A stretch of 64,000 nt of DNA from an uncultured Modestobacter sp. (GTDB lineage Bacteria; Actinomycetota; Actinomycetes; Mycobacteriales; Geodermatophilaceae): assembly GCF_947486615.1 (NCBI RefSeq), contig NZ_CANKUD010000001.1, forward strand, positions 496,001-560,000, written 5' to 3'. A program made the position numbers and the translations under genes. How positions within the stretch are numbered: position 1 is the first letter of the stretch; every line of letters starts with the position of its first letter. Under the pieces are notes generated by a model. It saw nothing but the letters and a program-made list of their open reading frames with translations. It was not told the origin of the DNA and made no database searches. This document shows positions 30,891-57,452 of the stretch, piece after piece.

Positions 30891-33800
30891 TCAGGCGGGC
30901 TGCGGCGCGACCGGACGCTGCTGCGTGCCTGCCCGCTTGGCCGCCCGGCGCTCCCGGCGGCTCTCCAGCGCGGTGTAGAGCACCGGCACCAGCAGCAGGG
31001 TGAGCACCGTGGAGCTGATCAGCCCGCCGATCACCACCAGGGCCAGCGGCTGGGAGATGAACACCCCGCCGCCGGTCAGCCCGAACGCCATCGGGGTGAG
31101 CGCCAGCACGGTGGCCGCCGCGGTCATCACGATCGGTCGCAGCCGCTTGCGGGCGCCCTCGCTGACCGCCTCGGCCAGCGGCAGGCCCTGCTCGCGGTAC
31201 TGGTTGACCAGGTCGATCAGCACGATCGCGTTGGTCACCACGATGCCGATCAGCATCAGCACGCCGATCAACGCCGGCACCCCCAGCGGGGTGCCGGTGA
31301 CCAGCAGCATCAGCAGCGCACCGGTCGCGGCGAAGGGCACCGAGACCAGCAGGATGAACGGCTGGGCCAGGCTGCGGAAGGTCGCCACCATGACCAGGTA
31401 GACGATCACGATGGCGATCACCAGGGCCAGGCCCAGGTCGGCGAAGGCCTCGCCCTGGTCGGCCGCGACGCCACCGATGGAGACCTCGGCGCCGGCCGGC
31501 AGGTCCAGCCCGTCGATCGCCGCCTGCAGCTGGGTGGTCAGCGCGCCGAGGTCGGCATCGGCCGGGGTCGCCGACACGGTGGCGCTGCGCTCGCCGTCGA
31601 CCCGGCTGATCGAGCTGGGTGCCTGCACCTGCTCCACGGTCGCCAGCGAGGTCAGCGGCACCGGCCCGGTGGCCGTCGGCAGCACCACCGCACGCAGCTG
31701 CTCGACGGTCTCCGGTGCCTGCACCGGGTCCAGGTAGACCGGCGTGCTCGCGTCGTCGACGTCGATCTCGCCCAGCGGGACGGCGCTGGTCAGCCCGGCC
31801 AGCGTCCGGGTCACCTGCGCCTCGGTCAGCCCGGCGGCCGCGGCGGCGACGGGGTCGACGTCCACCTGCACCACCGGCAGCCCGGCGGACAGGTCGTTGG
31901 TCACGTCGGTCGCGCCCTCCACCTCGGAGACGGCCTGCTGCACCTGGTCGGCGGCCTCGGCCAGCACGTCGGCGTCGGCCGCCTGCACCAGGACGTCGAC
32001 CGTCGAGCTGCCGAACCCGGAGCCGGCGGCGGCCACGGTCACCTCACCGACGTCCTCGAGCTCCTGGGCGACGTCCCGGATCTCCGCGCGGGTCTCCTCG
32101 GGGTCGCCGTCCTCGGCCAGGGTCAGCGCGAACGTCGCGGTGGGCGTGCCGCCACCGCCGTTGAACGCGGCGAACCCGCCGGCCGAGCCGACCGTGGTCT
32201 GCACGGTCGCCACCCCGGCGACCTCGCCCAGCGCGCTCTCCAGCACCCGGGCCCGCTCGTCCTGGGCAGCCAGGCTGGTGCCGGCCGGGTAGGCGGCGGT
32301 CACGGTGACGGTGTCCTCGCCGGCGTCACCGATGAAGTTGGTCTGCAGCAGCGGGGTGAGCGCCAGGGTGCCGACGAAGACCGCCAGCGCCCCGGCCACG
32401 GTCCAGCGGCGGTGGGCCAGCACGCCGCGCAGCGCAGGTACGTACAGCCGCTGCAACCAGGTGCGCCGCTCGGCGACCTCGGCCGCCTCGCGCTCGCGGG
32501 CCACCTCCGCGGTGTCCTCCCGGTCGGTGTCCGGCGCCTTCAGGAACGCCGAGGCGATCACCGGGACGATGGTCAGCGAGACGACCAGCGAGGCGAGCAG
32601 GGCGATCGCGACGGTGAGCGCGAACGGCCGGAACAGCTCGCCCACCAGGCCGCCGACCAGTGCGATCGGCAGGAACACCGCGGCGGTGGCGATGGTCGAG
32701 GAGGTGATCGCCCCGGCCACCTCGCGCACCCCGCCGAGGATCGCCTTGGTCCGCGCCTCGCCGTAGGACAGGTGCCGCTTGATGTTCTCGATGACCACGA
32801 TCGAGTCGTCGACGACGCGGCCGATCGAGACGGTGAGCGCGCCCAGGGTGAGGATGTTGAGCGAGAAGCCGGCCACCTGCAGGCCGATGAACGTGACGCA
32901 CAGCGACACCGGGATCGACACCGCCGAGATCAGCGTCGAGCGCACCGAGGCCAGGAACACCAGGATCACGATCAGCGCGAACAGCAGCCCGAGCCCGCCC
33001 TCGGTGGCCAGGCCCTCGATCGACTCCTCGATGAACGGTGCCTGGTCGAACACCACGGCCACCGTGCTGCCCTCACCCAGCAGCTCCCGCACCTGGGGCA
33101 GCAGGTCCTCCACGGCGTGCGAGATGTCGACGGTGTTGCCGTCGGGGGTCTGGGTCAGCCCGACCGACAGCGCCGGCTGGCCGTCGACCCGCGAGTAGGA
33201 CGTCGCCGGCGCCTCACCGAGCTCGACCGTGGCGACCTCGCCCAGCGTGACGGCGGCGCCGGTCAGCGGCAGGGCGCGTAGCTCCTCGACCGAGGTGAGC
33301 CGGTCACCGGCCTGCACCGGAAGGGACTGCTCGCCCTCGGTCACCGTGCCGGCGGGCAGCACGACGCCGTTCTCCTCCAGCACCGTCGAGACCGCCGCCG
33401 GCGAGACCCCGGCGGCGGCGAGCGCGGCCGGGTCGAGGGTGATCTGCACCCGGGGCTCGCTGGCGCCGGTGACCGTCACGTCGCGCACGCCCTCGACCTG
33501 CTCGAACAGCGGGACGACGGCTGAGTCGATCCGGTCGGAGAGCGCGGCGGTGTCCCCCGGCGCGGCGATCGCCAGCTGGACCACCGGGAAGTCGGCCAGC
33601 GACCCGGCGAGCACCTGCGGCTCGACGTCGGCCGGCAGCTGGGCCTGCACCCGGCTCACCGCGGTCTGCAGCGCGGCGGTGGCCCGGTCGATGTCCGAGC
33701 CGTACTCCAGCTCGACGGTGACGGTGGCCAGCCCGGTGCTCGCCGTGGAGGTGGTGGCGACCACCCCGTCCACGGTGGCGATCGCCTGTTCCAGTGGCTG

Positions 33801-33995
33801 TACGACCTGGCGCTCCACCACGTCGGGCGAGGCGCCGGGCTGGGCGGCGACCACCGCGGCCGCGGGGATCTGCAGGCTCGGGATCAGCTCCTGCTTGAGC
33901 GAACCGGCCGAGATCAGCCCGAAGACGAGCACGGCGATGGTCGCCAGCGCCACGAGCGCTCGATTGCGCAGGGACAGGACGGCGAGACGGGACAC
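30891..33995 (-). CDS. RND efflux permease (AcrB/MdtB-like, HAE1 family)
   Basis: A 1034-residue RND pump with two repeated halves: each has one helix, a large porter loop, then five or six helices. The proton-relay Asp pair is in SIGRVVDDSIVVIENIKRH (about residue 395). As in Gram-positive HAE1-like members, there is no adjacent membrane-fusion or outer-membrane gene. GTG at 33995 has GGAGGA six bases upstream. It is divergent from a MarR regulator with a perfect operator palindrome between, so drug-inducible control is likely. Confidence 0.93.
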   Translation of the reverse strand: MSRLAVLSLRNRALVALATIAVLVFGLISAGSLKQELIPSLQIPAAAVVAAQPGASPDVVERQVVQPLEQAIATVDGVVATTSTASTGLATVTVELEYGSDIDRATAALQTAVSRVQAQLPADVEPQVLAGSLADFPVVQLAIAAPGDTAALSDRIDSAVVPLFEQVEGVRDVTVTGASEPRVQITLDPAALAAAGVSPAAVSTVLEENGVVLPAGTVTEGEQSLPVQAGDRLTSVEELRALPLTGAAVTLGEVATVELGEAPATSYSRVDGQPALSVGLTQTPDGNTVDISHAVEDLLPQVRELLGEGSTVAVVFDQAPFIEESIEGLATEGGLGLLFALIVILVFLASVRSTLISAVSIPVSLCVTFIGLQVAGFSLNILTLGALTVSIGRVVDDSIVVIENIKRHLSYGEARTKAILGGVREVAGAITSSTIATAAVFLPIALVGGLVGELFRPFALTVAIALLASLVVSLTIVPVIASAFLKAPDTDREDTAEVAREREAAEVAERRTWLQRLYVPALRGVLAHRRWTVAGALAVFVGTLALTPLLQTNFIGDAGEDTVTVTAAYPAGTSLAAQDERARVLESALGEVAGVATVQTTVGSAGGFAAFNGGGGTPTATFALTLAEDGDPEETRAEIRDVAQELEDVGEVTVAAAGSGFGSSTVDVLVQAADADVLAEAADQVQQAVSEVEGATDVTNDLSAGLPVVQVDVDPVAAAAAGLTEAQVTRTLAGLTSAVPLGEIDVDDASTPVYLDPVQAPETVEQLRAVVLPTATGPVPLTSLATVEQVQAPSSISRVDGERSATVSATPADADLGALTTQLQAAIDGLDLPAGAEVSIGGVAADQGEAFADLGLALVIAIVIVYLVMVATFRSLAQPFILLVSVPFAATGALLMLLVTGTPLGVPALIGVLMLIGIVVTNAIVLIDLVNQYREQGLPLAEAVSEGARKRLRPIVMTAAATVLALTPMAFGLTGGGVFISQPLALVVIGGLISSTVLTLLLVPVLYTALESRRERRAAKRAGTQQRPVAPQPA

Positions 33996-34029
33996 GCTTC
34001 CTCCACGGCCCGGGAGCCGGTCGGGGGGA

Positions 34030-34050
34030 TAGTTTGCGTGGAGCAAACTA
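34030..34050. promoter_or_regulatory. MarR-type operator between RND pump and marR genes
   Basis: TAGTTTGC, 5-nt spacer GTGGA, GCAAACTA: a perfect 8-bp inverted repeat. It lies 34 bp upstream of the pump start and 36 bp upstream of the marR start, a position able to repress both. TAGTTTGC is typical of MarR sites. Confidence 0.85.
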
Positions 34051-34086
34051 CCGGCTGGGGTCGAGAGTTCCCCGGAGGGAGGCAGC

Positions 34087-34659
34087 ATGTCGACGGACGC
34101 CGACGACGAGGTGGGCCGGCACGGGACGTCCGGGCGAACGCCCGACGACGGTCCGATGGACGACGCTCAGGTGGGCGAGGCACCCGGGTGCATCGTCCCG
34201 GAGGAGTGGGCGGCGCACTGGCGTGACCTGCCCGCCGACGTCCTGGCCGTGCTGCGGCTGGGTGCGGAGGTGGGCGACCACGACATGCGGCGGCGGCTGG
34301 CGCCGCTGCTGGACACCCCGCTCACCCTGCAGCAGCTGCGCTGCCTGACCTTCCTGGTCGTCGAGGGCTCCGCGACGCCACTGCTGCTCAGCGAGCTGCT
34401 CGGGGTGAGCCCGGCGACCACCACCGGGCTGGTCGACCGGCTGGTGCGGGCCGGCATGGTCGACCGGGCACCGGACGCCCGGGACGGCCGCGGCAAGGTG
34501 CTCTCCCCCACTCCGGACGGCGTCCGGGTGGTGCGGCGGCTGATGGCGGCCGACGTGGAGACCGACGCCACGGTGGTGCAGTCGCTGTACCCGGAGGAGC
34601 TCGACGCGCTCCGCCGCGGGCTGACCGGCCTGCTCCGGGTGCTCCGCAGCCAGGGCTGA
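34087..34659 (+). CDS. MarR-family transcriptional regulator
   Basis: A 190-residue MarR protein with an extended acidic N-terminus (about 45 residues). The winged helix is LTLQQLRCLTFLVVEG, PLLLSELLGVSPATTTGLVDRLVRAGMVDRAPDARDGR (wing), flanked by dimerisation helices. Divergent from the RND pump with a shared operator, so it very probably represses both itself and the pump and is released by a pump substrate (inference from family). ATG at 34087 with GGAGGGAGGC upstream. Confidence 0.93.
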   Translation: MSTDADDEVGRHGTSGRTPDDGPMDDAQVGEAPGCIVPEEWAAHWRDLPADVLAVLRLGAEVGDHDMRRRLAPLLDTPLTLQQLRCLTFLVVEGSATPLLLSELLGVSPATTTGLVDRLVRAGMVDRAPDARDGRGKVLSPTPDGVRVVRRLMAADVETDATVVQSLYPEELDALRRGLTGLLRVLRSQG

Positions 34660-36898: not shown

Positions 36899-36914
36899 AT
36901 CTCATCTGTGAGAT
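36899..36914. promoter_or_regulatory. Palindromic operator upstream of XRE-MurA gene
   Basis: ATCTCATCTGTGAGAT: perfect 6-bp arms around TCTG, 14 bp before the ATG of the XRE-MurA gene and next to a TATA-like TGAGATAACCT. XRE proteins often bind short inverted repeats like this one in their own promoters. It also lies 47 bp from the divergent small-membrane-protein start. Confidence 0.65.
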
Positions 36915-36927
36915 AACCTGCCCGGCG

Positions 36928-38472
36928 ATGACGCTCACCGAGGAAGCCACCGGCCAGTCCCTCCGCCAGATCGGCGGCCTGGTTCGCGACGCGCGCCGAC
37001 ACCACGGCCTCACCCAGACCCAGCTCGCCGAACGGCTGGGCACCAGCCAGAGTGCGATCGCCCGCATCGAGCAGGGCAACCAGAACCTGACCCTGGAGCT
37101 GCTCGGCCGGCTGTCCGCCGCGCTGGAGAGCGAGCTGATCACCGTCGGCCGCACCGGCCCCACCCACCTGCGGGTCAGCGGCGGCACCCCGCTGTCGGGC
37201 AGCGTGACCGTGAAGTCGTCGAAGAACGCCGCCGTCGCCCTGCTGTGCGCCTCGCTGCTCAACCGCGGCCGTACGACGCTGCGCAACGTCTCCCGGATCG
37301 TGGAGGTCGACCGGATCCTCGACGTCCTGACCTCGATCGGGGTCTCGGCGACCTGGGACGAGGCCGGCCGGGACCTCACCCTGCTGGTCCCCGACGAGCT
37401 GGACCTCACCGCGATCAACGCCGACGCCGCCCGGCGCACCCGCAGCATCATCATGTTCCTGGGCCCGCTGCTGCACCGGGCGGACACCTTCGAGCTGCCC
37501 TACGCCGGCGGCTGCAACCTCGGCACCCGCACCGTGCAGCCGCACATGATCGCGCTGCGCCCCTTCGGCCTGGAGATCGAGGCGCACGCCGGCGCCTACC
37601 AGGCGACCGTCACCCGGGCCGTCGGCCGCGACCGCACGATCGTGCTGACCGAGCGCGGCGACACCGTCACCGAGAACGCCCTGCTGGCCGCCGCCCGGCA
37701 CGACGGCACGACCACGATCCGCAACGCCAGCCCGAACTACATGGTCCAGGACCTGTGCCTGTACCTGGAGCTGCTCGGCGTCCGCATCGAGGGCTTCGGG
37801 ACGACGACCCTGGTGGTCACCGGGCGGCCGGTGCTCGACGCCGACGTCGACTACACGATCAGCGAGGACCCGGTCGAGGCGATGAGCCTGCTGACCGCCG
37901 GCATCGTGACCAGCTCGGAGCTGACCGTGCGCCGCGCGCCGATCGAGTTCCTGGAGATCGAGCTGGCGACCCTCACCGAGATGGGCCTGCGCTACGAGCT
38001 CTCCGCGGAGTACCCCGCCGACAACGGCCGCACCCGGCTGGTGGACATCACGATCCACCCCTCCCAGCTGCGGGCACCGATCGACAAGGTGCACCCGATG
38101 CCGTTCCCGGGGCTGAACATCGACAACCTGCCGTTCTTCGCGGTGATCGCGGCGACCGCGACCGGCGAGACGGTGATCCACGACTGGGTCTACGACAACC
38201 GGGCGATCCACCTGTCCGACCTGACCCGGCTGGGCGCCGACGTCCGGCTGCTGGACCCCCACCGCGTGCTGGTCTCCGGGCCGACCCGCTGGTCGGGCGC
38301 GGAGATCGTCTGCCCGCCCGCCCTGCGCCCGGCCGTGGTCATCCTGCTGGCCATGCTCGCGGCCAAGGGCTCCTCGGTGCTGCGCAACGTCGACATCATC
38401 GCCCGCGGCTACGAGCAGCTCTACGAGCGCCTGGTGGAGATGGGCGCCCAGATCGAGGTCTTCACCGACTGA
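36928..38472 (+). CDS. XRE helix-turn-helix fused to MurA-type enolpyruvyl transferase
   Basis: A 514-residue two-part protein. Residues 12-72 form an XRE/Cro helix-turn-helix (LVRDARRHHGLTQTQLAERLGTSQSAIARIE). Residues 78-514 form a MurA-like UDP-GlcNAc 1-carboxyvinyltransferase. Lys99 in KSSKNA and Cys196 in AGGCNLGTR match the substrate Lys and catalytic Cys of MurA, and LRPAVVILLAMLAAKG/RGYEQLYERL match its C-terminus. The FPTD acid motif is altered: HPMPFPGLNIDN has Leu where the catalytic Asp would lie. ATG at 36928 lies 14 bp after a perfect palindrome, hinting at self-regulation through a wall precursor. Enzyme activity is uncertain. Confidence 0.88.
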   Translation: MTLTEEATGQSLRQIGGLVRDARRHHGLTQTQLAERLGTSQSAIARIEQGNQNLTLELLGRLSAALESELITVGRTGPTHLRVSGGTPLSGSVTVKSSKNAAVALLCASLLNRGRTTLRNVSRIVEVDRILDVLTSIGVSATWDEAGRDLTLLVPDELDLTAINADAARRTRSIIMFLGPLLHRADTFELPYAGGCNLGTRTVQPHMIALRPFGLEIEAHAGAYQATVTRAVGRDRTIVLTERGDTVTENALLAAARHDGTTTIRNASPNYMVQDLCLYLELLGVRIEGFGTTTLVVTGRPVLDADVDYTISEDPVEAMSLLTAGIVTSSELTVRRAPIEFLEIELATLTEMGLRYELSAEYPADNGRTRLVDITIHPSQLRAPIDKVHPMPFPGLNIDNLPFFAVIAATATGETVIHDWVYDNRAIHLSDLTRLGADVRLLDPHRVLVSGPTRWSGAEIVCPPALRPAVVILLAMLAAKGSSVLRNVDIIARGYEQLYERLVEMGAQIEVFTD

Positions 38473-39112
38473 TCCCAGGTCTGCGCGGCGGCTGGGCGTG
38501 CGGGGTGCCAGTTGGCGATGGACAGCTCTCGCCAACAACGCGCGCCAGCAGTCGCGAGGCGGTCGGCAGCAGATCGCTCTCGACCTCCCACAGTCCGGCC
38601 GCCAGTCGCTGACCGACCGCCTGCCGCGATATGCCCAGTTCAGCCGCCGCCTGAGCCTGAGTTTTTCCAGCTTCGACGAGGTCAACTGCCTCCCACGCCT
38701 GGACACTGCGCCGAGAGACGAGCACGGCAAGGGCCGCGAGCACGGCCTGAGCGTCCGCGGCCGCCTCGGGGGCCGCCCCCCGGACGGCCACCCGTACGGA
38801 GCGCTTCTTCGCGGCGACCACCGCCGCACGGGCTGCCAGGAACGCGGGTCCGGAAGCCGCCCGGGTGCTCGCGGGGAGGGGCTCGTGGACCGGCCCGGCG
38901 CCCACCCCGATGCTCCAGCTCCCGTCACGGACCAACTGACGCACGACATCAACGACGACGACCGACTCGGTGACCACCCCCTGGAACTCGTCTCCGGCGG
39001 TGCGTTCGAAGCCAAGCAGCACCGGGACATCGACCAAAGCAGCGAGTGCCCGAGGAACTTGGTCTTCCCCAACCCTGCTGGCCCGCTGATCCACGGTCAG
39101 GACGAACGGCAC
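38462..39112 (-). CDS. SatD-like protein with C-terminal helix-turn-helix
   Basis: A 216-residue protein. The N-terminal half has FERTAGDEFQGVV, as in SatD-family proteins, with hydrophobic strands around it. The C-terminal half contains a sigma-region-4/transposase-like helix-turn-helix (GKTQAQAAAELGISRQAVGQRL, about 148-170). The last residues are Pro/Arg-rich and overlap the 3' end of the XRE-MurA gene by 11 bp in the opposite strand. GTG at 39112. SatD-like proteins often pair with a membrane protein; the next gene upstream (39180) is one. Function unknown. Confidence 0.78.
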   Translation of the reverse strand: MPFVLTVDQRASRVGEDQVPRALAALVDVPVLLGFERTAGDEFQGVVTESVVVVDVVRQLVRDGSWSIGVGAGPVHEPLPASTRAASGPAFLAARAAVVAAKKRSVRVAVRGAAPEAAADAQAVLAALAVLVSRRSVQAWEAVDLVEAGKTQAQAAAELGISRQAVGQRLAAGLWEVESDLLPTASRLLARVVGESCPSPTGTPHAQPPRRPGISR

Positions 39113-55534: not shown

Positions 55535-56782
55535 TCAGCCGGCCGGCAGCTGCGGCGGGGCGTCGTCCTCGCGGCGGTTGCGCGGGTCGGCGGCCGGGCC
55601 GCTCTCCTGCACGTCCTGCTTGACCTGCGACAGCGGCGGCGGCTTCGGGATCTGCGGCCCCGTCTCCACCGCCTGGTCGGCGATGCTCGACAGTGTCATC
55701 TTCGCCTCGGGCTGCTCGGCGGCCGGAGGCAGGTTCGAGTCGAACCAGCTGCTGGTGTCCAGCGAGGACGCCGCAGGCGCGGCCGGGGCTGCCTGCTGAC
55801 CGCCGGCGGGGGCGTCGACGTCCATCCAGTTCCGCGCCCCGTCGCCGTCCTCGCCACCACCGAGCTTGGACAGCCCCTCCAGCGCCTTGCTGAACTCGCT
55901 GGGCACGATCCACATCTTGTTGGCGTCGCCCTGCGCGATCTTCGGCAGCGTCTGCAGGTACTGGTAGGCCAGCAGTCCCTGGTCGGGCTTGCCGTCGTGG
56001 ATGGCCTGGAAGACCGTCTCGATCGACTTCGCCTGGCCCTGTGCCTGGAGGAACAGCGCGGCGCGCTCACCCTCGGCGCGCAGGATCCGGCTCTGCCGCT
56101 CGGCCTCGGCGTCCAGGATGGCCGCCTGCTTCTTGCCCTCGGCCGACAGGATCGAGGCCGCCTTCTGCCCCTCGGCGGTGGTGATCGCCGCGTGGCGCTG
56201 GCCCTCGGCGGTGAGGATGACCGCGCGCTTGTCGCGGTCGGCGCGCATCTGCTTCTCCATGGAGTCCTGGATCGAGGGCGGCGGGTCGATGGCCTTGATC
56301 TCCACCCGGGCGACGCGCAGGCCCCACGGGCCGGTGGTGCCGTCGAGCACGGTGCGCAGCTGGGAGTTGATGCCGTCCCGGCCGGTCAGCGCGCCCTCGA
56401 GGTTGAGCCCACCCACGACGTTGCGCAGCGTCGTGGTCGTGAGCTGCTCCATGCCGGTGATGTAGTTCGCGATGCCGTAGACGGCCAGCCGCGGGTCGGT
56501 GACCTGGAAGTAGACGACGGTGTCGATGCCCACCTGCAGGTTGTCGGCGGTGATCACCGGCTGCGGCGGGAAGGAGATGACCTGCTCACGCAGGTCGATC
56601 GTCGCCCGCACCCGGTCGACGAAGGGGACCAGCAGGGCCAGTCCCGGGGAGAGGGTGCGGCTGTAACGACCGAGACGCTCGACGACCTTGGCCTGCGCCT
56701 GCGGGACGATCGTCACGCTCTTGGCCAACACGAAGACCACGAGGACGGCGATCACGATCAGCGCGATCAGGGCGGGTTCCAC
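55535..56782 (-). CDS. SPFH/Band 7 protein (QmcA-like)
   Basis: A 415-residue membrane protein. N-terminal helix (PALIALIVIAVLVVFVLAK), then an SPFH domain (TIVPQAQAKVVERLGRYSRT, DLREQVISFPPQ, VITADNLQVGIDTVVYF), a coiled-coil region rich in EGQ/KAA repeats (ILTAEGQRHAAITTAEGQK) and a Pro/Ala-rich C-terminal tail. SPFH proteins form membrane scaffolds, often beside NfeD partners as here (next gene, 56885). GTG at 56782 with CGTCCGAGGAA-like upstream context weak. Confidence 0.93.
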   Translation of the reverse strand: MEPALIALIVIAVLVVFVLAKSVTIVPQAQAKVVERLGRYSRTLSPGLALLVPFVDRVRATIDLREQVISFPPQPVITADNLQVGIDTVVYFQVTDPRLAVYGIANYITGMEQLTTTTLRNVVGGLNLEGALTGRDGINSQLRTVLDGTTGPWGLRVARVEIKAIDPPPSIQDSMEKQMRADRDKRAVILTAEGQRHAAITTAEGQKAASILSAEGKKQAAILDAEAERQSRILRAEGERAALFLQAQGQAKSIETVFQAIHDGKPDQGLLAYQYLQTLPKIAQGDANKMWIVPSEFSKALEGLSKLGGGEDGDGARNWMDVDAPAGGQQAAPAAPAASSLDTSSWFDSNLPPAAEQPEAKMTLSSIADQAVETGPQIPKPPPLSQVKQDVQESGPAADPRNRREDDAPPQLPAG

Positions 56783-56884
56783 GAGGGAGGTGCTCCGTTC
56801 CTAGGAGGTGGTGCGTGCCACCGATCCTGCCTCGTTCGGAACGGTGGGTCACGCCCGGCAGGTGCCCGTCACCCGATCGCGATC

Positions 56885-57316
56885 TCAGGTGTGGCTGACG
56901 TAGGCGATCGGGCCCTCGATCTGCACGATCCGCACCTCGTCGCCCACGTCGTAGGCCTCGCCGTCGAGCTGGGTGCGCGCCGTCCACTCGTCGTGCCCCA
57001 GCCGGACCCGGCCGGCGTGCTCGTCGACCCGCTCGCTGACCACCGCGGTGCGGCCCACGTAACTGGCGACCCCGTCGATCTGCTCCGGGGTCCGGTCCAG
57101 CAGTTGCCGCTTGGCGATCGGCCGGACGACGACGAGCAGCGCGGTCGAGACGACGATGAACGCCACCAGCTGCAGCCACACCTCCCCGCCGAGCAGGGCG
57201 ACGCTCATCCCGCCGAGTGCGCCGCCGGCGAACATCAGCAGCACCAGGTCCAGGCTGGCGACCTCGCCCGCGGCGAACAGGCCGGAGGCGATCAACCAGA
57301 GCAACCAGGCAGGCAC
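56885..57316 (-). CDS. NfeD-like protein (SPFH partner)
   Basis: A 143-residue NfeD1b-type protein: two or three membrane helices (PAWLLWLIASGLFAAGEVAS, LMFAGGALGGMSVALL, LVAFIVVSTALLVVVR) and a C-terminal OB fold (GRTAVVSERVDEHAGRVRLGHDEWTARTQ). NfeD-SPFH gene pairs are recurrent; the NfeD OB domain probably works with the scaffold. GTG at 57316. Runs toward the SPFH gene, 102 bp upstream of it, same strand. Confidence 0.92.
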   Translation of the reverse strand: MPAWLLWLIASGLFAAGEVASLDLVLLMFAGGALGGMSVALLGGEVWLQLVAFIVVSTALLVVVRPIAKRQLLDRTPEQIDGVASYVGRTAVVSERVDEHAGRVRLGHDEWTARTQLDGEAYDVGDEVRIVQIEGPIAYVSHT

Positions 57317-57452
57317 GCTCCGCAGTCTGGCACGGACGGGCTCCCGCGGGCGGTCTGCCCGGGCTCGCGTCCGGCACGACGGCCCGCGTCGGCGACCCCT
57401 GCGACGGTGGGTGGCGACGGTGGGTGGCGGGGCCGTCGTAGCCTCGACAACC

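Follow-up and report, generated by a model that had tools for sequence, protein, structure and literature searches.

How do actinobacteria set the amount of the enzyme that opens cell wall synthesis? MurA (UDP-N-acetylglucosamine (UDP-GlcNAc) enolpyruvyl transferase) is the committed enzyme of peptidoglycan synthesis and represents the fosfomycin target class. To our knowledge, the control of its amount in actinobacteria is little understood. The question is raised by a gene in a 64,000-nucleotide stretch of an uncultured Modestobacter sp. genome (the window), which joins an XRE-type helix-turn-helix (HTH) to a MurA domain (36928..38472, + strand, 514 aa) and is preceded by a palindrome. We favour, with a probability of about 0.72, the reading that the fusion protein works as a MurA and at the same time represses its own gene in the manner of BirA, with DNA binding, dimerisation, repression and ligand coupling as its predicted components.

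The putative operator, ATCTCA-TCTG-TGAGAT (36899..36914, + strand), had been described in a sequence-only reading as a perfect 16-bp palindrome lying 14 bp before the start. The palindrome is indeed there, but only its two 6-bp arms are perfect, the 4-bp spacer between them is unpaired, and the gap between palindrome and ATG is 13 nt. Its last T is also the first base of a likely -10 box, TAACCT (36914..36919, + strand), which ends 8 nt before the ATG, and the mRNA of the fusion gene is probably leaderless. Within two mismatches the window contains one site (with 0 mismatches) versus 0.30 expected, and 24 of 100 shuffles of the window had at least one such match. The 4.7-Mb genome has a single site within one mismatch, located at the fusion promoter. 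The palindrome stands above chance because it is conserved across relatives, which is the decisive evidence.

We compared 155 loci, comprising the best 80 of 582 matches from contigs of named genomes plus loci from further genomes. Contig ends truncate L020 and L178, which left 153 loci with the HTH start and upstream DNA present; these are not independent, given that L104 is the window itself and that species may recur between the collections. As the score of the site we took the highest number of the 12 arm positions matched anywhere in the 200 bp before the codon for residue 12. All 12 positions matched in 93 loci, 11 in 48, 10 in 10, nine in one and seven in one, that is, at least nine in 152 of the 153. 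With 20 scrambled palindromes in the same regions, scores peaked at 6-8 and reached at least nine in 78 of 3,060 trials. The sequence-only reading had named two findings that would speak against it, a palindrome unconserved beside orthologues and an HTH lost in close relatives. Neither was observed: the site recurs upstream of the XRE-MurA pair across genomes, and the match reaches the HTH in 153 of the 155 loci, the other two being the contig-cut ones.

The position of the site is equally regular. In 147 of the 153 loci its last T opened a TAnnnT hexamer, and in 133 the first ATG or GTG followed 6-8 nt after the hexamer. For a conservation profile, 150 upstream regions (L155, L024 and L028 omitted) were reduced to 98 representatives with less than 60% mutual identity over the 40 bp that precede the site. 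In this profile the site stood far above the surrounding positions, as did the T, A and T of the hexamer; alignment on the best site match biases site conservation upwards, while the -10 was not selected for. A chance palindrome is ruled out by genome uniqueness, conservation in relatives, the fixed offset to the -10 and this profile. We infer that the promoter is leaderless and that an operator overlaps its -10; the palindrome is very probably the fusion protein's own operator. Enzyme-repressors of the BirA kind have the operator in their own promoter, and here a conserved site with a presumed operator role overlaps the -10 of the fusion gene. In L028 (Cellulomonas), a perfect second copy is present further upstream and the promoter copy matches at 11 of 12 positions, hinting at two operators in some groups.

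Does the HTH of the fusion read this site? The recognition-helix core TSQSA..RIE..QN is nearly fixed in the relatives, like the site. In Aeromicrobium Root495 (L052; L255 has the same sequence) both arms are altered symmetrically, to ATCGCA-N4-TGCGAT, and the helix has TTQSVV for TSQSAV; the site scores 11/12 or 12/12 in the other 29 Aeromicrobium loci fetched. In genome G139 (L155) the helix reads TEQDIE and the best match is only 7/12, i.e. no site was found. This covariation supports pairing of HTH and site on two cases; as proof it is weakened by a third locus, L265, discussed below, and it is kept as support.

The sequence-only reading had also considered control of wall genes. When 20 genomes were scanned, each had 1-8 sites within one mismatch, the fusion promoter site being among them in 18; in G008 and G315 that site has two mismatches. 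The extra sites, which were not inspected individually, include perfect ones in G211 and G268. In these 20 genomes and the window's own genome we saw no regulon over wall genes, and because recurrence of the site was seen only at the fusion's own promoter, the circuit looks autogenous. A phylum-wide pattern scan gave an exact match in 21 of 149 genomes, mostly not examined for the fusion, and was too broad to inform on this point.

We then asked whether the protein is still an enzyme. Its open reading frame and domain matches confirm the 514-residue fusion that had been reported from the sequence. An HTH of the Cro/C1 type (XRE family) is present (HTH_3, 49.1 bits, cut-off 23); the match spans residues 19-67 (36982..37128, + strand) where residues 12-72 had been given. 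The C-terminal domain has the MurA fold (EPSP_synthase, 156.9 bits, cut-off 22.8; residues 84-502, 37177..38433, + strand), and the broader family NF006873 is matched with 316 bits, above its cut-off of 297. By alignment, with MurA positions given in E. coli numbering, Lys99, Asn100, Cys196, Arg201, Asp399, Arg467 and Arg493 correspond to the catalytic residues of MurA, and none of them varies in the 27 aligned relatives. The protein thus has the catalytic Lys, Cys (or Asp), general-base Asp and Arg expected of a MurA (Lys99, Cys196, Asp399, Arg201 and Arg493). Lys99 (codon 37222..37224, + strand) and Cys196 (37513..37515, + strand) take the places of Lys22 and Cys115, as had been proposed. 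The acid Asp had been thought changed, with FPGLNID in place of FPTD. The alignment rules this out: FPGLNID aligns with PGFPTD and has the same terminal Asp, so that Asp399 (38122..38124, + strand) keeps the Asp305 position in 27 of 27. The departures lie instead at Ala465 (38320..38322, + strand) and in the segment TERGDTVTEN.

A strong, if indirect, argument for activity is the MurA complement of genomes that carry the fusion. A class sample of 197 genomes includes 52 with the fusion, and these were searched with the MurA equivalog model TIGR01072. A canonical MurA accompanied the fusion in 35 of them, as it does in this genome, and 17 had the fusion only, plus AroA-level matches. Five of the 17 are single-contig assemblies (G171, G202, G241, G252 and G303), and the fusion is intact in 16. 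In the remaining one, G139, the sole MurA detected is a copy (L155, around 583-2123) broken across two frames, which may reflect sequencing error or decay; this copy has the altered helix and no operator. Viewed from the other side, 20 of the 197 class genomes had no MurA above cut-off, and 17 of these 20 carry the fusion; the three without it have as candidates G167 (no match), G161, G163 and G221 (weak best matches). Among 32 named fusion-bearing genomes picked from 80, the fusion was the only MurA in 11: Rarobacter faecitabidus, Serinibacter arcticus, four Aeromicrobium, four Nocardioides and Mumia quercus. The 17 and the 11 may overlap. Paraoerskovia sediminicola (G381) was excluded from the count of sole-MurA genomes; there, canonical murA consists of two overlapping pieces in different frames (C1:2515043-2516346) and the fusion is intact. 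A MurB match was present in 28 of 28 sole-fusion genomes, above cut-off in 27. Because walled bacteria need MurA and no other was found, the fusion must, judging from gene content, supply the MurA step in these 28 genomes. The earlier emphasis on a metabolite-sensing fold is not supported by this result.

The canonical MurA of the window's own genome (L002 / L195, contig C2, ~56060-57334) has Asp at the catalytic Cys position (GGDAIG), and the fusion keeps Cys. Asp for Cys in MurA is associated with fosfomycin resistance. As a general correlate of the fusion, however, such a canonical MurA had to be rejected: 36 of 50 canonical loci were readable, own gene counted twice, and these gave 25 Asp and 11 Cys.

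The occurrence of the fusion in other actinobacteria, previously put forward, was borne out. The class sample has it in 52 of 197 genomes, and in 15 of 91 genera. All 23 genomes of the genus, among them this one, carry the fusion (one as a contig-edge fragment), as does one of 16 other genomes of the order. Of 49 genomes from an Aeromicrobium-like genus, 48 have it, and the exception is 58% complete. In four congeners the fusion ends two residues earlier, at an apparent inner TGA. A quick tree placed the 27 fusion MurA domains in one group (Shimodaira-Hasegawa-like approximate likelihood ratio test (SH-aLRT) 100) on a long branch, separate from 13 canonical MurAs; the program flagged long branches in a warning.

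We propose that a dimer, formed through the XRE domain, would bind ATCTCA-N4-TGAGAT. The site occupies the part of the promoter spacer that precedes the -10 and extends into the first base of this box, so that bound protein would block RNA polymerase at the leaderless promoter, and transcription of the fusion gene would stop once the cell has sufficient MurA. Several observations weigh against this reading. The fusion scores 304.2 bits against TIGR01072, under the cut-off of 392.7. The Asp369 position is occupied by Ala465 (TDLRA to PALRP), invariant in 27 of 27, and so lacks the expected Asp; Asp369 and Leu370 are named as highly conserved in a passage of a review (PMC10352792), and in text of a second article they are said to help the fosfomycin-MurA interaction (PMC4062475). 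On the DNA side, L025 has only 9/12 arm positions, the best match in L024 lies away from the promoter, and L265 combines an altered helix, TSQNVV, with a standard site. Finally, repression is read from nothing but the position of the site, where an activator could also sit.

This last point leads to the possibility of a working MurA whose XRE domain activates its own promoter, or changes spacer topology like MerR. MerR-type activators bind upstream of the -10, as the site does here, and no good -35 was seen upstream (by eye, unscored). We consider activation unlikely, however: the base common to site and -10 in 147 of 153 loci favours a steric block, and XRE proteins are mostly repressors. Still less probable is a sensor without catalysis, in which the MurA domain binds UDP-GlcNAc, phosphoenolpyruvate (PEP) or UDP-N-acetylmuramic acid (UDP-MurNAc) and thereby controls DNA binding. 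The Ala at the Asp369 position would fit, as would the TERGDTVTEN segment, invariant in 27 of 27 fusions, where the own genome's canonical MurA has FPSVG-ATEN; so would the canonical MurA in 35 of 52 carriers and the precedent of BzdR (PMC3602430). Against it stand the 28 genomes with the fusion only, all with MurB, and the invariant catalytic Lys, Cys and Asp. A pseudo-enzyme is therefore unlikely for the family as a whole, while this lineage and others with both genes are less constrained. About as improbable is that another regulator reads the palindrome and the XRE domain serves a different role. In Streptomyces, published work describes a BldM-WhiI footprint (PMC4125116), a SigB-dependent promoter (PMC8346170) and a predicted DmdR1 site (PMC12161575) at the gene; but the published BldM-WhiI motif differs from our site (PMC4125116). 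Our site accompanies the fusion from family to family, and twice it is altered together with the helix.

If the fusion is a self-repressing MurA, the ligand state of its MurA domain would most likely tune repression, for example through a closed form with UDP-MurNAc and the PEP-Cys adduct. Such gating is plausible because titles of deposited structures report MurA crystals with UDP-MurNAc and the PEP-Cys adduct for several species. That MurA locked by UDP-MurNAc and PEP is itself the DNA-binding form, so that precursor surplus would shut off MurA synthesis and active-site occupancy would reset transcription, is a more tentative proposal, which we regard as somewhat doubtful. If it held, such gating would be the chief control over entry into the pathway in Nocardioidaceae and some Micrococcales, which have the fusion as their only MurA.

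What would self-repression mean? A wall-synthesis enzyme seemingly has a built-in repressor, and the site keeps both its sequence and its place in many actinobacterial families. In many soil actinobacteria, the enzyme of the first wall-building step thus probably controls how much of itself is made. A single protein and a single 16-bp site suffice to test for direct feedback on the committed step.

The surroundings of the fusion gene vary by group, with aconitase in Streptomyces and dienelactone hydrolase nearby here and in Klenkia. A gene on the opposite strand (38462-39112, - strand) ends within the final 11 bases of the fusion gene; its product has weak SatD-like and HTH matches, both under cut-offs. 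Further away, a MarR-type gene (34087-34659, + strand) and a long open reading frame (30891-34088, - strand) with, by appearance only, the look of a resistance-nodulation-division (RND)-type transporter form a head-to-head pair with overlapping start codons at 34086-34089.

Among known genes, the closest is found in Streptomyces, whose loci have 70-71% identity to the fusion. The orthologue there is almost certainly MurA2 (SCO5998; sven5810 / vnz_28735), since the fusion adjoins aconitase in S. coelicoflavus as SCO5998 adjoins SCO5999, with the predicted DmdR1 site in between (PMC12161575). The portions of the literature available to us present MurA2 as a paralogous UDP-GlcNAc transferase on which other regulators act, without mention of its HTH or of the operator described here: murA2 is a BldM-WhiI target in S. 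venezuelae (PMC4125116), and on overexpression an exploration phenotype was not reproduced (PMC11005364). A search of open-licence PMC full text, with subscription journals outside its scope, found no description of either. With the conserved site, MurA2, hitherto considered a paralogue, gains a likely regulatory role.

The nearest functional parallel is BirA, which is both biotin ligase and repressor of the biotin operon. Both are single polypeptides that combine enzyme and repressor and have an N-terminal HTH. The fusion differs in its XRE-type HTH, its unrelated enzyme and its own promoter as the only recurrent site, and its corepressor is conjectural. Compared to canonical MurA, the fusion forms a separate clade (27 rows, SH-aLRT 100); it carries an additional HTH, has Ala in place of Asp369 and scores below the equivalog cut-off. 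BzdR likewise joins an XRE domain to the fold of an enzyme from aromatic or wall metabolism; its C-terminal domain is shikimate-kinase-like, with shikimate kinase activity reported undetectable (PMC3602430). The fusion lacks the shikimate-kinase-like effector domain of the BzdR subfamily and has EPSP_synthase/MurA instead, and in contrast to BzdR, this domain must work where the genome has no other MurA.
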